From assembly GCF_000974985.2 (NCBI RefSeq), contig NZ_LAVA02000011.1, positions 147,077 to 211,076 of the forward strand: DNA of 64,000 bases, read 5' to 3'. The number at the start of each line of letters is the position of its first letter. Positions within the stretch are counted from its first letter, which is position 1. Positions 10,725 through 16,699 of this stretch are shown here, piece after piece. The notes below the pieces were generated by a model. That model worked only from the letters and a program-made list of their open reading frames with translations, was not told the DNA's origin and ran no database searches. A program made the position numbers and the translations under genes. The DNA comes from Streptomyces mangrovisoli (lineage in GTDB: Bacteria > Actinomycetota > Actinomycetes > Streptomycetales > Streptomycetaceae).

Positions 10725-11077
10725 GTGGCTCCCTTCGAACCCTTTCCGACCTGCAACATACCTCTGCGGGCGGCTTCGGCGCGACATTCCTCCAACCCTT
10801 AGTTCACGTTATGAGCTAAGTAGGTGGCGGCTATGAGGCCCGCGACCGGCCCACCGCGTGCGCCGGGCCGTCCGGCGCGGCGGCCGGCTGCGGCCACCCG
10901 CGTGGAACCGCGCCCGCGGAGCCCGCTCCCGGGAGTCCTCCACCATGCCCCGCCCTCCCCTGCCGCTCCGCCGCGCGGGAGCCTACCGGGTTGTTTTGGT
11001 GAAAGAGCCACTTCAAGTGATGTGCACGGGTATGACGTTGCTGACCGAATACGGGCCGGGCCGTCGAAGGGGAGCAG
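10725..11077. other. 353-base divergent spacer between ROK and NACHT genes
   Basis: No gene is supported. It holds the ROK-type operator candidate (10799-10819), a small CACTT-C-AAGTG dyad (11009-11019), and the NACHT ribosome-binding site AAGGGGAGC just before 11078. Confidence 0.55.
10799..10819. promoter_or_regulatory. ROK operator candidate
   Basis: TTAGTTCA-CGTTA-TGAGCTAA has 8-base arms with one mismatch around a 5-base centre. AT-rich TTAG/CTAA ends stand out sharply in this G+C-rich DNA and resemble ROK-family operators. Position is 75 bases upstream of the ROK start and 259 bases upstream of the NACHT start. Confidence 0.6.
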
Positions 11078-14000
11078 ATGGCGGGCAGGGCGTTACGACT
11101 CGTGCCGCGGGCGGGGCTGCTCGCGCTCGGCACCCTGGTGCCCGGCGCGGCGGGCATCACCTACCGCTCCGCGGTGGCCCGCCACCCGGTCCTCACCGTC
11201 GGGGCCCTGCTGGTCTGGGAGGCGCTGCTGCTCGGTGCCGCGTTCACGGGCAAGGTCTTCGGGGACCTGGAGAAGCGGTGGGTCGGGCGCACCGCGGAGG
11301 CCCTCGACCGGCGCCTGCTCTGGCGTGCCTCGCACCGCGTGTACCTGCGCCAACTGCGGGCCAACGTCCAGGACATGGAGACCGTGGGCATCGCCACACA
11401 GGGCGAGTTCGTGCTCCGGATGCGCCAGGTGTACGTCGACGTCGGCCTGACCCCGCAGACGCCGCACGCGGCCGCGCGGGAGCCGTATCTGGGCACGGTC
11501 CCCGGTGGTCGCACGGCGGCCGGCGCGGGGCGCAGACGCAGCCTGGAGTCCGTGCTGGGGGACGCCGAACAGGAGGGCGCCGCGCGGCTGTTCGCCCTGA
11601 TCGGCGGACCCGGATCCGGCAAGACGACGCTCGCCCGCGGCACGGCGCTGCGGCTGTGCGAGAGACAATGGCCTTCGCGGCGAGGGCGGTTGCCGGTCCT
11701 GCTGTACCTGCGCGACCACGCCAGGGCACTGCTCGCCGAAGACCCGCCGGGGCTGGGGGCGGTGGCGTGCCAGGCGACCTGGCTGCGCGAGAAGGTCCCC
11801 CCGGGCTGGCTGGAGCGGCAGCTCGAACGGGGCCGCTGCCTGGTCCTGTTGGACGGTCTCGACGAGGTCGCCGATCCGGCCGAGCGGGGCCGCGTGGTGG
11901 CGTGGGTGGAACAGCAGCGGGCCCGGCACCCCGAGAACATCTTCCTGGTGACCTCCCGGCCGCACGGCTACCAGTCGAAGCCGCTGACCGGCGCGGAGGT
12001 GCTCCAGGTGCAGCGCTTCACCCCGGAGCAGGTCGAACGGTTCCTGCACCAGTGGTCGTACGCCGTGGAGTGCCGGGCGCGGGCCGAGACCGGCCGTGAG
12101 GTGCGGGCGATCGCGGACCGTCAGGCGGCGGACCTGATGACCCGGCTGCGGACCCGGCCCGCGCTGTACGACCTCTCGGCGAACCCCCTGCTGCTGACGA
12201 TGACGGCGAACGTGCACCGCTACCGCGGCGCGCTGCCGGGCAGCCGCGCGGAGCTGTACGCCGAGATGTGCGACGTACTGCTGCACCGGCGGGCGGAGGC
12301 GCGCGGGCTGAGCGACGCGACCGGTCTGGAGGGGCGGCACAAGCGGCACGTGGTGCAGCGGCTCGCGCTCGCGATGATGAAGGGCCGGGCCCGGGACTGG
12401 CCGCTGGCCAGGGCGGCTCGCGCGATACAGACGGCGCTGCGGGAGGTGCCCGGCGCCGTGACCCCCGAGGTGTTCCTCGACGAGGCCCGAAAGAGCGGGC
12501 TGCTCGTGGAGCGGGAACAGGGCGTGTACGGCTTCGCCCACCTGACCCTTCAGGAGTACCTCGCGGCCGCCCAGTTGGGGACCTCCCGGACCGGGAAGCG
12601 GTCGCTGGCGGCGACCGTGGACGACCCGTGGTGGCGGGAGACCATCCTGCTGTGGGCCGCCGACAACGACGCGACGGCGATCGTCGACGCCTGCTACCGG
12701 TCGGGCTCCATCCAGACCCTGGCGCTGGCCTTCGACTGCGTCGACCAGGCCAGGACCGTCGCGCCCGAGACCCGCGAGCGGCTGGAGTCCCTGCTGACAC
12801 CGTCCGGCTCCGCCACGGACCCGGCCCTGCGGGCGCTCACGGCGGGCATCCTGGCGACCCGGTCGCTGCGGGAGGTCGTGACGCTGGACGAGAACACGGT
12901 GCTGTGCGCGAATCCGGTGTCCGCGACGCTGTACGAGCTGTTCGTCCGGACGGAGGAGGCGCGCGGCCTGCATCACCCGCCCGCCGCCCGGCGGACCTCG
13001 GACGGTGACGGACCCGCGGTGGGGATGGAGGGCGAGGACGCGGAACGGTTCGTGGAGTGGCTTCGTGGGGTGACGGGCGACTCTTCCCATCGCCTGCCGA
13101 CTACGGCGGAGTTGACGGGCTACGCCCATCCCGCCGCCGGGTCCCACACCGTGTGGACGAGCGACGACGGGGGCGTGCGGCTGCACCGAACCCCGGGGGT
13201 GGCCTGGCCGTACGCTGCCGACAGCAGCCTGGAGGTGCGGATCCCCGCCGAACTCGCGGAACACGACCTCTATCTGTGTCTGCTGAGCATGCAGCAGAGG
13301 TACCGCGTGGTGATCGGCGACTGGGCGCACGCCTTCTCGCGGGCCTTGGCCCCCGACCGGCCTTCCCCACCCGTGGCCCAGCTCGTACCCGTCGTCGCCC
13401 TGGCACGGGAACTCGCCCGCGCGCAGGAGTGGATCACCGACTCCAGGCCCCAGGACGCCACCTGGTCGGTCCTCGCGGATCGCATCGCCCGACTCCAGAA
13501 GTGCATGGGCCCCGACGTCGACTACCTTCCCACCGTCCACCTCATGCAGGACGCCGGCGGCCCTCGGGACGCGTCCTTCCGGCTCAACCTGGAAGAGCTG
13601 CTGGACGACCACCTCGGACAGGTCGTCGTCGAGGCTCAAGAACTCGGGCTCGATCCGGCTGCCGACACATCGGTCGTGCAGCTGACCTCCGTGCTCACCG
13701 ATTGCCTCGCGCAGATCCCTGCCCCCACCGAGTGGCAGTTCCTCCGACCGTCCGAGGAGTCGCGGTCACTCGTCCAGGCTCTGGTCATGAACGGCCTCGT
13801 GTCCGACGCCCCGGCTCCGAGATCCGCCTCCGAGCAGCTCGACTTCGCCCTCGATCTGGGCCTGCGCTACAGCCCCACACATATGCGCATCCTGCCCACG
13901 GCCCTCGATGCGCTGTTCGCCGGCTGGTCCCCTCCCGCCAAGCCCATGGACGTCCTGCCGGACCTCACCCGCGTCGCGGCACGAGCCCGTCAGGCTCACT

Positions 14001-14341
14001 CCGGGACGGGCCTTGTCCCCGTCCCCGAGAACGCTGCGGCGGCCTTGCGGGGCGCTCGTTACGCGATGCCGGGCACGTCCCGGCTGGGCCTCCTCATGGG
14101 CGACCTGACCGAGGTGCTCACCGACCTGTCCGAGCGCCGCTCACCGATGGACCGGCGGTCCCTTGCGCTGGTCCGGTTCGCACTGATCGCGGCCTTGATC
14201 GAGATCCACGAGGAACAGCCGCTCGGCACGGCGGGCGTTCTCGTCCACATGGCGTTGCAGCACGTCGCCGCCCACCACCCCGTCACCGCGACACTGCCCC
14301 AGGCCAACCAGATCCTCCTGATCGCCCGCTCCGAACCCTAG
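11078..14341 (+). CDS. Membrane-anchored NACHT NTPase with degenerate FGE-like region
   Basis: A 1087-residue STAND/NACHT-type NTPase. Residues about 14-58 form two hydrophobic helices, predicting a membrane anchor. A linker follows to about 165, then the NTPase: Walker A GGPGSGKTT (176-184), Walker B CLVLLDGLDEVAD (254-266), sensor-like LVTSRPHGY (290-298) and the NACHT-associated winged-helix signature FAHLTLQEYLAA. About residues 600-700 resemble a decayed formylglycine-generating-enzyme (SUMF1) fold, with AVGMEGEDAERFVEWL and HRLPTTAEL. Residues 700-1087 are helical and unrecognised. Bacterial NACHT proteins include anti-phage NLR-like sensors and regulators, so a defence or signalling role is inferred, not shown. 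RBS AAGGGGAGC supports ATG 11078. It stands alone, with no adjacent toxin or nuclease. Confidence 0.88.
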   Translation: MAGRALRLVPRAGLLALGTLVPGAAGITYRSAVARHPVLTVGALLVWEALLLGAAFTGKVFGDLEKRWVGRTAEALDRRLLWRASHRVYLRQLRANVQDMETVGIATQGEFVLRMRQVYVDVGLTPQTPHAAAREPYLGTVPGGRTAAGAGRRRSLESVLGDAEQEGAARLFALIGGPGSGKTTLARGTALRLCERQWPSRRGRLPVLLYLRDHARALLAEDPPGLGAVACQATWLREKVPPGWLERQLERGRCLVLLDGLDEVADPAERGRVVAWVEQQRARHPENIFLVTSRPHGYQSKPLTGAEVLQVQRFTPEQVERFLHQWSYAVECRARAETGREVRAIADRQAADLMTRLRTRPALYDLSANPLLLTMTANVHRYRGALPGSRAELYAEMCDVLLHRRAEARGLSDATGLEGRHKRHVVQRLALAMMKGRARDWPLARAARAIQTALREVPGAVTPEVFLDEARKSGLLVEREQGVYGFAHLTLQEYLAAAQLGTSRTGKRSLAATVDDPWWRETILLWAADNDATAIVDACYRSGSIQTLALAFDCVDQARTVAPETRERLESLLTPSGSATDPALRALTAGILATRSLREVVTLDENTVLCANPVSATLYELFVRTEEARGLHHPPAARRTSDGDGPAVGMEGEDAERFVEWLRGVTGDSSHRLPTTAELTGYAHPAAGSHTVWTSDDGGVRLHRTPGVAWPYAADSSLEVRIPAELAEHDLYLCLLSMQQRYRVVIGDWAHAFSRALAPDRPSPPVAQLVPVVALARELARAQEWITDSRPQDATWSVLADRIARLQKCMGPDVDYLPTVHLMQDAGGPRDASFRLNLEELLDDHLGQVVVEAQELGLDPAADTSVVQLTSVLTDCLAQIPAPTEWQFLRPSEESRSLVQALVMNGLVSDAPAPRSASEQLDFALDLGLRYSPTHMRILPTALDALFAGWSPPAKPMDVLPDLTRVAARARQAHSGTGLVPVPENAAAALRGARYAMPGTSRLGLLMGDLTEVLTDLSERRSPMDRRSLALVRFALIAALIEIHEEQPLGTAGVLVHMALQHVAAHHPVTATLPQANQILLIARSEP

Positions 14342-14362
14342 AACCCGCCCGGCAGGGCCCCG

Positions 14363-14788
14363 TCACCGGTTGGGATCCGCCCCGCTGATGTCCGACAGCA
14401 CCGTGTGCTCCTCGTGCAGGGTCGCCAGGTCGCCGAGGCTGATCACGCCGACGGGGGCGCCGCCGTGTTCCACCACCGGCAGGCGCCGTACGGCGTACTG
14501 GCGCATCAACTCGACGGCGTGGTCGGTCGTGTCGTCCGGGGTCACCGTCACCACCGGCGGCCGGGTGCACAGCGAGCCGACCGGCGTGGTGTGCGGGTCG
14601 CGGCCCTCGGCGATGCCGCGGACCACGATGTCCCGGTCGGTGAGGACGCCGAAGAGGTCGACGTCGTACGCCACCAGCACGTCGCCGACGTCGTGTTCGC
14701 GCATCACGCGTGCCGCCCGTTCCAGCGAGGTCATCGGCTCGACGGCCTCCGCGCCGGGGGTCATCACGTCACGTATCAGCCGGGTCAT
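14363..14788 (-). CDS. CBS-domain pair protein
   Basis: A 141-residue protein made of two CBS motifs. The first carries VMTPGAEAVEPMTSLERAAR...FGVLTDRDIVVR, the second PVVTVTPDDTTDHAVELMR...VGVISLGDLA. Bateman modules bind adenosine nucleotides or S-adenosyl compounds and act as energy or redox sensors. Free-standing CBS proteins of this size are common in actinomycetes, where they interact with dehydrogenases or kinases; the partner here is unknown. ATG 14788 follows GGGAGGTG at good spacing. It is convergent with the NACHT gene (21 bases apart) and lies downstream of the hydrolase gene on the same strand. Confidence 0.88.
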   Translation of the reverse strand: MTRLIRDVMTPGAEAVEPMTSLERAARVMREHDVGDVLVAYDVDLFGVLTDRDIVVRGIAEGRDPHTTPVGSLCTRPPVVTVTPDDTTDHAVELMRQYAVRRLPVVEHGGAPVGVISLGDLATLHEEHTVLSDISGADPNR

Positions 14789-14857
14789 GGGGCACCTCCC
14801 GCATCGCAACCTTGGCTCTGTCCGGGTCCGGTCGGGTCCGGTTCGTCCGGTCACCGC

Positions 14858-15535
14858 TCAGGGCGACTCGCGCCCCGCGTCCAGGCGTTCGTCGCACCAC
14901 CGGACGGTCATCGCCACCGCCCGGTTCACCACCTCCGGCTCGTCGAAGTGATGGGTGGCGCCGGGCACGACCTGCACGGCGTGCGGCGCGCCGAGGTGCT
15001 GCGCCGCGTCCTCGGTCAGCTTCTGCGCCTGCGGGTCCCGGTCGCCCGCGATCAGCAGCACCGGCACCCGCACCCGGCGCAGCGCCTCGGTCGCGAGGTC
15101 CGGGCGGCCGCCCCAGGTCACGGCGGTGAGCACCAGGTCGGGCAGTTCGGCGGCGGCCTCCAGCACGGCCGCGGCCTCGCTTCCGGCGCCGAGCAGGACG
15201 AGCGGCAGCGACCGTACGCCCGGCTGGATGTTCAGCCAGTCCACCCCGGCGACCGTGCGGCGGCCCAGCCGGTAGACGTCGAAGCGCTGTTCGCCGGCGG
15301 CCGTCAGGACGTCGTCGCGGTCCTCCCGCTCGCTGAGCAGATCGAGGGCGAGCGTCGCGAAGCCCGCGCCGTTGAGCTCGGCGGCCATGGCCCGGCTGCG
15401 CGCCCCGTGCCGGGTGTCGCTGATTCCGTGCGCGCACAGGACGACCGCGCGCGCTCCGTCCGGGACGACGAGATCGCCGCCGAGCGTCACGTGGTCCGCG
15501 GGCACCGACACCATCTCGGAGATCATGCGCTTCAC
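14858..15535 (-). CDS. Dienelactone-hydrolase-like alpha/beta hydrolase
   Basis: A 225-residue alpha/beta hydrolase starting with a GGDLVVPDGARAVVLCAHGI strand and oxyanion region. The elbow VLLGAGSEAAAV has serine in a GxGS-E context that is not a clean GxSxG, and the late segment LIAGDRDPQAQ and ATHHFDE supply acid and histidine. Such proteins occur next to universal-stress or phosphoribosyltransferase modules in Streptomyces; catalytic activity needs testing because the elbow is unusual. GTG 15535 follows GAGGGAACAG; an ATG nine bases downstream (15526) is the alternative. It runs towards the CBS gene, 69 bases away, and the two may be co-transcribed. Confidence 0.8.
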   Translation of the reverse strand: MKRMISEMVSVPADHVTLGGDLVVPDGARAVVLCAHGISDTRHGARSRAMAAELNGAGFATLALDLLSEREDRDDVLTAAGEQRFDVYRLGRRTVAGVDWLNIQPGVRSLPLVLLGAGSEAAAVLEAAAELPDLVLTAVTWGGRPDLATEALRRVRVPVLLIAGDRDPQAQKLTEDAAQHLGAPHAVQVVPGATHHFDEPEVVNRAVAMTVRWCDERLDAGRESP

Positions 15536-15766
15536 CTGTTCCCTCGGGCTGGTCGGCCCGGTCCGGGTGGGCCCGGCCGGGCATCACGTCGGGACCGGGT
15601 ACCCATTCGGGCGCGGAGTTCGCACGATGTGTCGCGAGAGCTCCGGGCGAGGGCGGCTCGGACGGGACGGTACGGCGCGCACCTCCAAGTCTCTGCCGTA
15701 CGCGTCGGACCGGCAAACGCCGGGGACGGCGCCGCCGGCGGCGGATCGGCGGCGCCGTCGACGCGG

Positions 15767-16699
15767 TCAGGACGTTTCGGACGACGGCGCGGCGCGGGCC
15801 GTGCCCGCCCCCTCGGGTGCGCCGAAGCGGGCCAGGGTGTGCCACACCTTCTTGAGGTCCTGGAGGTCGTGGCGTCCGGTCCGGGCGGCGTCACCGATGG
15901 CCCGTGGGTCGAGCAGGCCGTTCCGGGCGATCCGGGCGCCGAGGTCGGCGTACTCCTGACCGCGGTAGTCGCCATGGCGGCGCAGCGCGGCCACGGTGAG
16001 GCGGTAGCCGGGATGCCATTCGACCGGGCAGGGCAGCGCGCGGGCCGCGGCCTCGACCTCGGTGCCGTGGTAGCAGGCGTCCAGGACGAGCGCCTCGACG
16101 TCCCGGGCCAGATCGACGCCGCCGTGCACCTGCGCCTCGATGTAGTCGTCGAGCGCGTCCCGCTCGTCGGACTCGGCGAGGTCGATCAGGGTCATGCCCG
16201 CCGCCACCCCGAAGTCGGTGGGCTCGGCCGCGCTGTCCGGGTAGCAGAAGGTGGTGCGGTGCAGCGGGCCGGGCGCGAGCCGGAAGTGGGCGGAGCCGAA
16301 GCGGGGCGCCGCGCCGACGACTTGGCGGCGGAAGTCGAGGGCGCCGTAGACCGGGCGCTCGACGGCGGGCGCGTCGTCGTAGGCCCCGCCGAAGATCCTG
16401 CTCTCCCAGCGCCAGCGGTCACCGCCCGGGCGCGCGGTGAGCCCGCCGTTGCTGGTGCCGGTCACGAACTGGGAGCGGTAGGCGCCGTCCCTGGCCAGCG
16501 CGTCGAGGATCGGCATCCCGCCGATGAGGCGGTCGGGATGGAAGTTGAGCGTGAGGCGCAGGTCCTCGCCGACGGGCCGTCCGGCGGAGCGCGCCGCGAC
16601 ATGGGCGAGCGCGGCACGGGCCCGCCCTTCGAGCCCGCCATGAACCCGTCCGTCGAGCCCGGCGCGGGTCGGCCGAGGTCCTGCCTCCGGGAAAAACAA
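15767..16699 (-). CDS. DUF3626 domain protein
   Basis: A 310-residue protein filled by a DUF3626-type domain. Conserved-looking blocks are LTLNFHPDRLIGG, YRSQFVTGTSNGGL, RWRWESRIFGGAYDD, RPVYGALDFR, FGSAHFRLAPGPLHRTTFCY and VEWHPGYRLT. It has no signal peptide or membrane helix. Function is unknown; many fixed His, Arg, Tyr and Ser/Thr residues suggest an enzyme. The start is TTG 16699 with GGGGAG five bases upstream; no ATG or GTG with a Shine-Dalgarno site lies nearby. It is divergent from the FBP zinc-finger gene over 96 bases that hold two overlapping inverted repeats. Confidence 0.78.
   Translation of the reverse strand: MFFPEAGPRPTRAGLDGRVHGGLEGRARAALAHVAARSAGRPVGEDLRLTLNFHPDRLIGGMPILDALARDGAYRSQFVTGTSNGGLTARPGGDRWRWESRIFGGAYDDAPAVERPVYGALDFRRQVVGAAPRFGSAHFRLAPGPLHRTTFCYPDSAAEPTDFGVAAGMTLIDLAESDERDALDDYIEAQVHGGVDLARDVEALVLDACYHGTEVEAAARALPCPVEWHPGYRLTVAALRRHGDYRGQEYADLGARIARNGLLDPRAIGDAARTGRHDLQDLKKVWHTLARFGAPEGAGTARAAPSSETS

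Follow-up and report, generated by a model that had tools for sequence, protein, structure and literature searches.

The genome of Streptomyces mangrovisoli carries a lone gene for a NACHT protein of more than a thousand residues, which raises the question of what the parts of this protein are and what the whole may do for the cell. The gene lies in a stretch of 64,000 nucleotides of contig NZ_LAVA02000011.1, referred to here as the window. An earlier note, made from the letters of the window alone, described a membrane-anchored sensor with a decayed segment and a long C-terminal region of its own. We present here a computational analysis of the gene, its relatives, and its surroundings, together with a proposal for its function.

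Results

The gene occupies positions 11078 to 14341 of the window on the + strand as an uninterrupted open reading frame of 1,087 amino acids (aa), as had been reported before, and AAGGGGAG stands upstream of its ATG (11067 to 11074, +). The features of the protein described below lie on the same strand. The database copy of the protein is 1,079 aa long and starts at a GTG 24 bases downstream of the ATG. Since an antisense frame of up to 848 aa occupies the same place in this GC-rich DNA, the length of the frame alone is no evidence for a gene; the frame is accepted as real because of homology, namely 989 relatives and a conserved core. The relatives were found in a protein search at E ≤ 1e-3 in which the 7,992 best candidates were scored, and those named among the best 120 of the 989 are actinobacteria, chiefly Streptomyces. 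Cyanobacteria, Ktedonobacterales, and a magnetotactic metagenome-assembled genome are also represented among the 80 of 184 loci kept from a contig search that used the alignment. Judged from these searches, the family is large and, among the named matches listed, mainly actinobacterial. Conservation across the alignment spans residues ~80 to 720. For the whole protein, Pfam gave nothing above cut-off besides NACHT, PADLOC and NCBIfam scans gave weak matches only, and phmmer found no relative among solved structures at E ≤ 1.

The Pfam NACHT profile (PF05729) matches residues 171 to 326 (11588 to 12055) with an E value of 2.4e-13 and 50.7 bits, against a curated cut-off of 26.7. The Walker A (GGPGSGKTT, residues 176 to 184, 11603 to 11629) and Walker B (LLDGLDE, residues 257 to 263, 11846 to 11866) motifs within it are intact, and by profile and motif the protein is a member of the NACHT family. 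The NTPase is followed by a helical part of the core (residues 327 to 595, 12056 to 12862), defined by the model and by the FxHLTxQEYLAA element FAHLTLQEYLAA (residues 486 to 497, 12533 to 12568); all three motifs are found where the earlier note had placed them. In a 79-row alignment, G176, G179, G181, K182, T183, D259, G260, D262, and E263 are invariant, and strict patterns recovered Walker A in 102, Walker B in 86, RLPT in 85, and F.H.[TS].QEY in all of 115 relatives. The linker ahead of the domain (residues 83 to 170, 11324 to 11587) bears the conserved stretch YLRQLRANVQDMETVG. In the predicted structure, the NTPase and the helical part (~175 to 613 of the model) superpose on NLR chains, and on this basis a likeness of the core to the NOD-like immune receptors of animals is predicted.

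In the predicted structure, residues 596 to 720 (12863 to 13237) correspond to the first half of a fold of the formylglycine-generating enzyme (FGE) or C-type lectin kind, and the strand NQILLIAR near the C terminus (residues 1077 to 1084, 14306 to 14329), identified from the model and the alignment, closes it. The predicted model matches FGE structures with both segments as a single fold, which strongly suggests one FGE/C-type-lectin-like fold split by an insert. W661, R672, P674, E678, and W693 are invariant in the 79 rows, and the closing strand keeps its N in 100, L1080 in 97, and its R in 105 of 114 sequences. Since the segment is conserved across the family, it is not decayed in the window copy, and the earlier view that it had decayed was rejected. 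A catalytic cysteine pair in the C-terminal half defines FGE activity. That the catalytic cysteines are missing, as had also been proposed, was borne out: C610 (kept in 105 of 114) is the sole conserved cysteine of the first half, and residues 717 to 1087 contain one column with at least 30% Cys, at 1031 (64 of 114; Leu in the window protein). C336 appears in the title of structure 2aft. An active FGE enzyme was rejected on the grounds that the second half has no conserved cysteine pair and that the model shows helices in its place.

Profile searches bear on the FGE assignment through relatives. FGE-sulfatase (PF03781) is absent from the Pfam matches of the window protein at E ≤ 1. Among seven relatives, it scored above the cut-off of 23.3 in two (Moorena L147, 23.7 bits, and Ktedonobacteraceae L145, 24.1 bits), below it in one (L143), and was unlisted in four; in a separate set, it fell below the cut-off in 3 of 8 relatives. 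L147 and L145 match profile positions 36 to 156 of 255, which make up the leading portion of the FGE profile, and a profile of the segment matches ToxD in the PDB at an E value of 0.0023. Sequence support for the assignment is indirect but consistent. The FGE-like label given earlier stands as a predicted fold, with PF03781 present in some relatives, and does not extend to a listed PF03781 match in the window protein.

Between the two parts of the fold lies an insertion of about 355 residues (721 to 1076, 13238 to 14305), which is predicted to be all-helical, diverges fast in identity comparisons, and in the model occupies the place where a true FGE has its catalytic half. The last ~390 residues had been read as a separate, unrecognized region; since the model places the last strand inside the FGE-like fold, most of this region would instead be the helical insertion. 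Over 6,441 pairs, the median identity was 0.63 for the core, 0.45 for the FGE half, 0.50 for the closing strand, and 0.24 for the insert, and for the 903 pairs with cores 75 to 90% identical, insert identity was 0.31. Such divergence is consistent with a recognition cassette that is driven to change, and relaxed constraint would leave much the same picture. Variation driven by repeats was rejected as too weak, as the longest alternating run in 171 inserts averaged 1.2 residues versus 0.3 in shuffles, and none reached 24. Alternating runs of 12 to 16 are present in a few inserts (L137, P0117, P0088, P0081, and others); in L137, a Candidatus Magnetomicrobium relative, a LDLDLDLDLDLALDLD run lies inside the insert at protein residue ~772. 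A match of the C terminus to a housekeeping output domain, which had been named as a finding that would speak against a defense role, did not appear in the searches made with Pfam, NCBIfam, phmmer, and Foldseek. Foldseek matches of the C-terminal model were mostly membrane transporters with E values of 0.04 and worse, and this likeness was taken to reflect generic helical matches.

The N-terminal module (residues 1 to 82, 11078 to 11323), designated type A, was delimited by hydrophobicity and by the N termini of relatives, and Pfam found no domain in it. Two hydrophobic helices had been described here; the claim holds for residues 38 to 56, with a strong mean Kyte-Doolittle value of 2.08, and is marginal for residues 9 to 27, with 1.33. 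The module is predicted to be a two-helix membrane hairpin with a marginal first helix. Of 203 N termini in the family, a number that includes duplicates between two sets, 147 are type B, 31 are type A, and 25 are other, several of these last having truncated starts. None of the 203 matched both the type A and type B models, which had themselves been made with 10 and 16 of the rows classified; as far as these models tell, the two modules are unrelated and occupy the same N-terminal place. Swapping of this position between relatives is the behavior that would be expected of an output module.

A protein search with residues 1 to 98 matched solely the window's own copy, and a module common to unrelated proteins was rejected on that result. 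The type A profile gave matches in 4 of 246 genomes of the genus, namely, the window genome (twice), G066, G052, and, weakly, G464. The G052 match is a lone type A module without NACHT in a 169-aa frame (L033, 2226 to 2735, −), perhaps a remnant. A member in G012 (L036, 5263 to 8256, −) has a glycine/glutamine-rich N terminus with a VQAG core in place of the hairpin and of either module type, and this stretch is, by eye, reminiscent of RHIM-like amyloid motifs.

In a sample of 151 genomes of the genus, with at most 5 candidates scored per genome, matches at E ≤ 1e-3 occurred in 98, and matches above 200 bits occurred in 5: the window genome (G000), G114, G066, G012, and G062, the last a partial match. 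Matches outside these five scored 24 to 122 bits and fell mostly in the NACHT region of other proteins. In a sample of the class, 4 of 296 genomes, including the window genome, gave a match at E ≤ 1e-60. The gene is part of an accessory block (10823 to 15786) with a CBS-domain gene (14363 to 14854, −) and a dienelactone-hydrolase gene (14858 to 15535, −), both named from Pfam. The ROK and DUF3626 genes on either side are collinear in the relative G002, where ~56 bases stand in place of the block. No NACHT relative was found by tblastn at 1e-8 in any of nine stretches around the best ROK matches (ROK 75 to 88% identical; two stretches on short contigs). In 4 of the 9 relatives, the DNA alignment around the ROK gene stops at 10820 to 10822 and the content beyond differs, as at a variable site at window position 10820. 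By these comparisons, the NACHT gene is accessory and rare in the sampled genomes; presence as a core gene throughout Streptomyces, which the earlier note had said would make an accessory defense role unlikely, was not found.

The earlier statement that no separate effector gene lies nearby agrees with the neighborhoods of relatives: among 69 loci, at most 6 share any one neighboring gene family. Genes were called there by a crude script based on codon composition, and the 69 are those left of the 80 loci once L145, L146, L149, L152, and L154 to L160 had been set aside as truncated or distant. A conserved operon partner was rejected on this count. Mobile carriage was likewise rejected, as searches of plasmids (E ≤ 1e-30) and phages (E ≤ 1e-5) gave no match. 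RVT_1 gave 0 matches in the 199-contig window genome, with matches in 3 of 14 genomes in a control search, and diversification driven by a diversity-generating retroelement (DGR) was rejected on this basis.

The window genome also encodes a paralogue (L034, 9403 to 12861, +, contig G000:C112) that is 40% identical over 6 to 794 and whose chain, after NACHT and the FGE-like fold, runs on into a C-terminal bacterial sugar transferase (PF02397, E value of 6e-61). This domain is a polyprenyl-phosphate sugar-1-phosphate transferase, which primes exopolysaccharide. Modestobacter (L142) and Solihabitans (L143) share this plan, Saccharothrix deserti (L146) has a trace of it, and three pairs of fused members are 41 to 44% identical over 1,149 to 1,213 aligned positions. 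PF05729 and PF02397 occur together in 24 of 26 matches that span 97 to 100% of the query region, the paralogue itself among them; the other 2 are shorter and have no NACHT match. FGE-sulfatase is precomputed for 7 of the 26. KFRTM is present in all 26, a DELxQLxN-type motif in 20, and, by a strict pattern, an ESLIFVRE-type strand just upstream of the transferase in 13. The neighborhoods of the fused genes are, by eye, not obvious polysaccharide clusters. The transferase domain alone matched in 73 of 100 genomes at E ≤ 1e-40, and such enzymes are common.

Further arrangements were seen around this branch. P0161 and P0170, from Kribbella and another source, combine NACHT, TPR-type domains, and PF02397 and apparently represent a second type of link between STAND NTPases and the priming of polysaccharides. 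The fused member P0126 has IIQVGGDQHVH ahead of its helices. Upstream of the fused paralogue, L034 (4733 to 7651, +) encodes another NACHT protein, which has an HTH at its N terminus and, at its C terminus, LRR matches that are weak and fall below the cut-off. Among the titles and abstract starts that came up in searches of open-access papers, a set outside which most subscription papers fall, none concerned a split FGE in NACHT proteins or a NACHT-sugar-transferase fusion.

Discussion

The anatomy of the window protein is well supported. We infer that the insert binds a ligand, that the protein assembles into a ring, that its output is at the membrane, and that it serves in phage defense; membrane insertion, the NLR-like fold, and the split-FGE fold are predictions. 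We give roughly even credence to the reading that the protein is a membrane-tethered, self-contained NLR-like receptor acting against invaders such as phages. Binding of an invader or stress ligand would fall to the C-terminal lectin-type fold, which is predicted to be split by the helical insert, and in the ligand-bound state the NACHT core would assemble into a ring. The ring would cluster the membrane hairpins, which would then damage the membrane or signal there; the output is probably the membrane module. The membrane-anchored sensor of the earlier note survives as an architecture, with a predicted membrane module, a core modeled as NLR-like, a fast-diverging C terminus of a kind suited to sensing, and a lone accessory gene; its decayed FGE and its separate domain of ~390 residues do not. 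As one gene seemingly holds sensor, switch, and membrane output, it could be tested by itself in Streptomyces.

Three other readings were weighed against this receptor. The protein may instead sense or control the envelope (surface polysaccharide, wall stress, or development) without killing, the hairpin being an anchor; this seems rather improbable and is kept as a serious rival because one branch of the family, including the window genome's own paralogue, L142, and L143, bears a C-terminal transferase. The joint presence of PF05729 and PF02397 in 24 of 26 fused matches and the conserved KFRTM and DELxQLxN-type motifs also favor it. The window protein itself, however, has no transferase, and the fused genes inspected lie outside polysaccharide clusters as judged by eye rather than by domain scan; a patchy distribution and an insert that diverges very fast speak more for conflict than for housekeeping at the envelope. 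We consider it unlikely that the hairpin merely tethers the protein and that a separate effector encoded elsewhere is recruited in trans, for example, through BASS/BELL-like amyloid motifs. BASS motifs at NLR N termini are described in the accessible part of PMC7889193, and the VQAG N terminus in G012 and IIQVGGDQHVH in P0126 are similar by eye. Against this, no partner gene recurs near the 69 family loci, and inspection of residues 1 to 82 of the window protein by eye revealed no amyloid-type signaling motif. The third reading, that the gene is an ordinary accessory NACHT gene that drifts in the source strain and has no strong function, would agree with the literature read, which gives no member a function, and with the lone N-terminal module in G052. 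It is very unlikely given the full-length frame, the intact P-loop, Walker B, and closing strand of the window copy, and the constraint on the core across the family.

The receptor reading can be extended, tentatively and with some doubt, to a new class of bacterial NLRs that reside at the envelope. In such proteins, a rapidly evolving helical "ligand cassette" would open a C-type-lectin/FGE fold, the final strand of the receptor part would close it, and this fold would drive a NACHT ring on the membrane. In the branch fused to an exopolysaccharide-starting enzyme, sensing of an invader might switch the cell surface besides or instead of killing, which would tie NLR-type sensing to surface polysaccharide.

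Among known systems, FGE, PvdO, and ToxD share the modeled fold of residues 596 to 720 and the last strand; they differ in that the window model has helices in place of the catalytic half, with no conserved cysteine pair there. Avs4 (8dgf), an Avs antiviral STAND protein, matches the window model far more weakly than NLR chains do. It has another NTPase clade and another sensor. The three-part layout of N-terminal module, NACHT, and C-terminal part resembles that of bNACHT anti-phage proteins such as bNACHT25, as described in the accessible part of PMC12169576, and on that plan, the first part of the window protein would be the effector and the third the sensor. According to the same text, bNACHT25 has a nuclease effector and NCH1, whereas for the window protein a membrane module and a split FGE-like fold are predicted. 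Antigen sensors of the DGR-diversified NACHT/CLec group (PMC10907252, in part) also join NACHT to a CLec/FGE-type fold bearing a variable part. Unlike the genomes of those sensors, the window genome has no reverse transcriptase match, and where they have a mutagenized repeat, the window family varies between members in a long helical insertion. The accessible parts of two metacaspase papers (PMC3501461 and PMC7475262) report FGE-sulfatase and NACHT attached to caspase homologues and describe no NACHT-FGE protein of this kind; partial texts of PMC7159879 and PMC9612521 supply further context.

The closest likeness is to STAND-FGS proteins, a predicted class of bacterial immune receptor. In the accessible text of Kaur et al. 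(2021, eLife, PMC8195603), these proteins, NACHT proteins included, are predicted to act in conflict, with the FGS domain as proposed invader sensor, often linked to DGRs, and with N-terminal modules such as effector-associated domains (EADs), TIR, peptidases, and kinases. A NACHT-clade STAND NTPase followed by an FGS domain (PF03781, C-type-lectin type) and a variable N-terminal module are common to both, and by motif and predicted structure, the window protein has the STAND NTPase and the FGS-fold domain in one chain. Set against that text, the window protein differs in its predicted two-helix membrane module, in the helical insertion that would split its FGS-like fold, and in the lack of an RVT_1 match in its genome. 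Its sensor is apparently built differently, as a lectin-type scaffold presenting a variable helical cassette in a genome in which no reverse transcriptase was found. The best reading is that the window protein is a variant of the predicted STAND-FGS conflict proteins.
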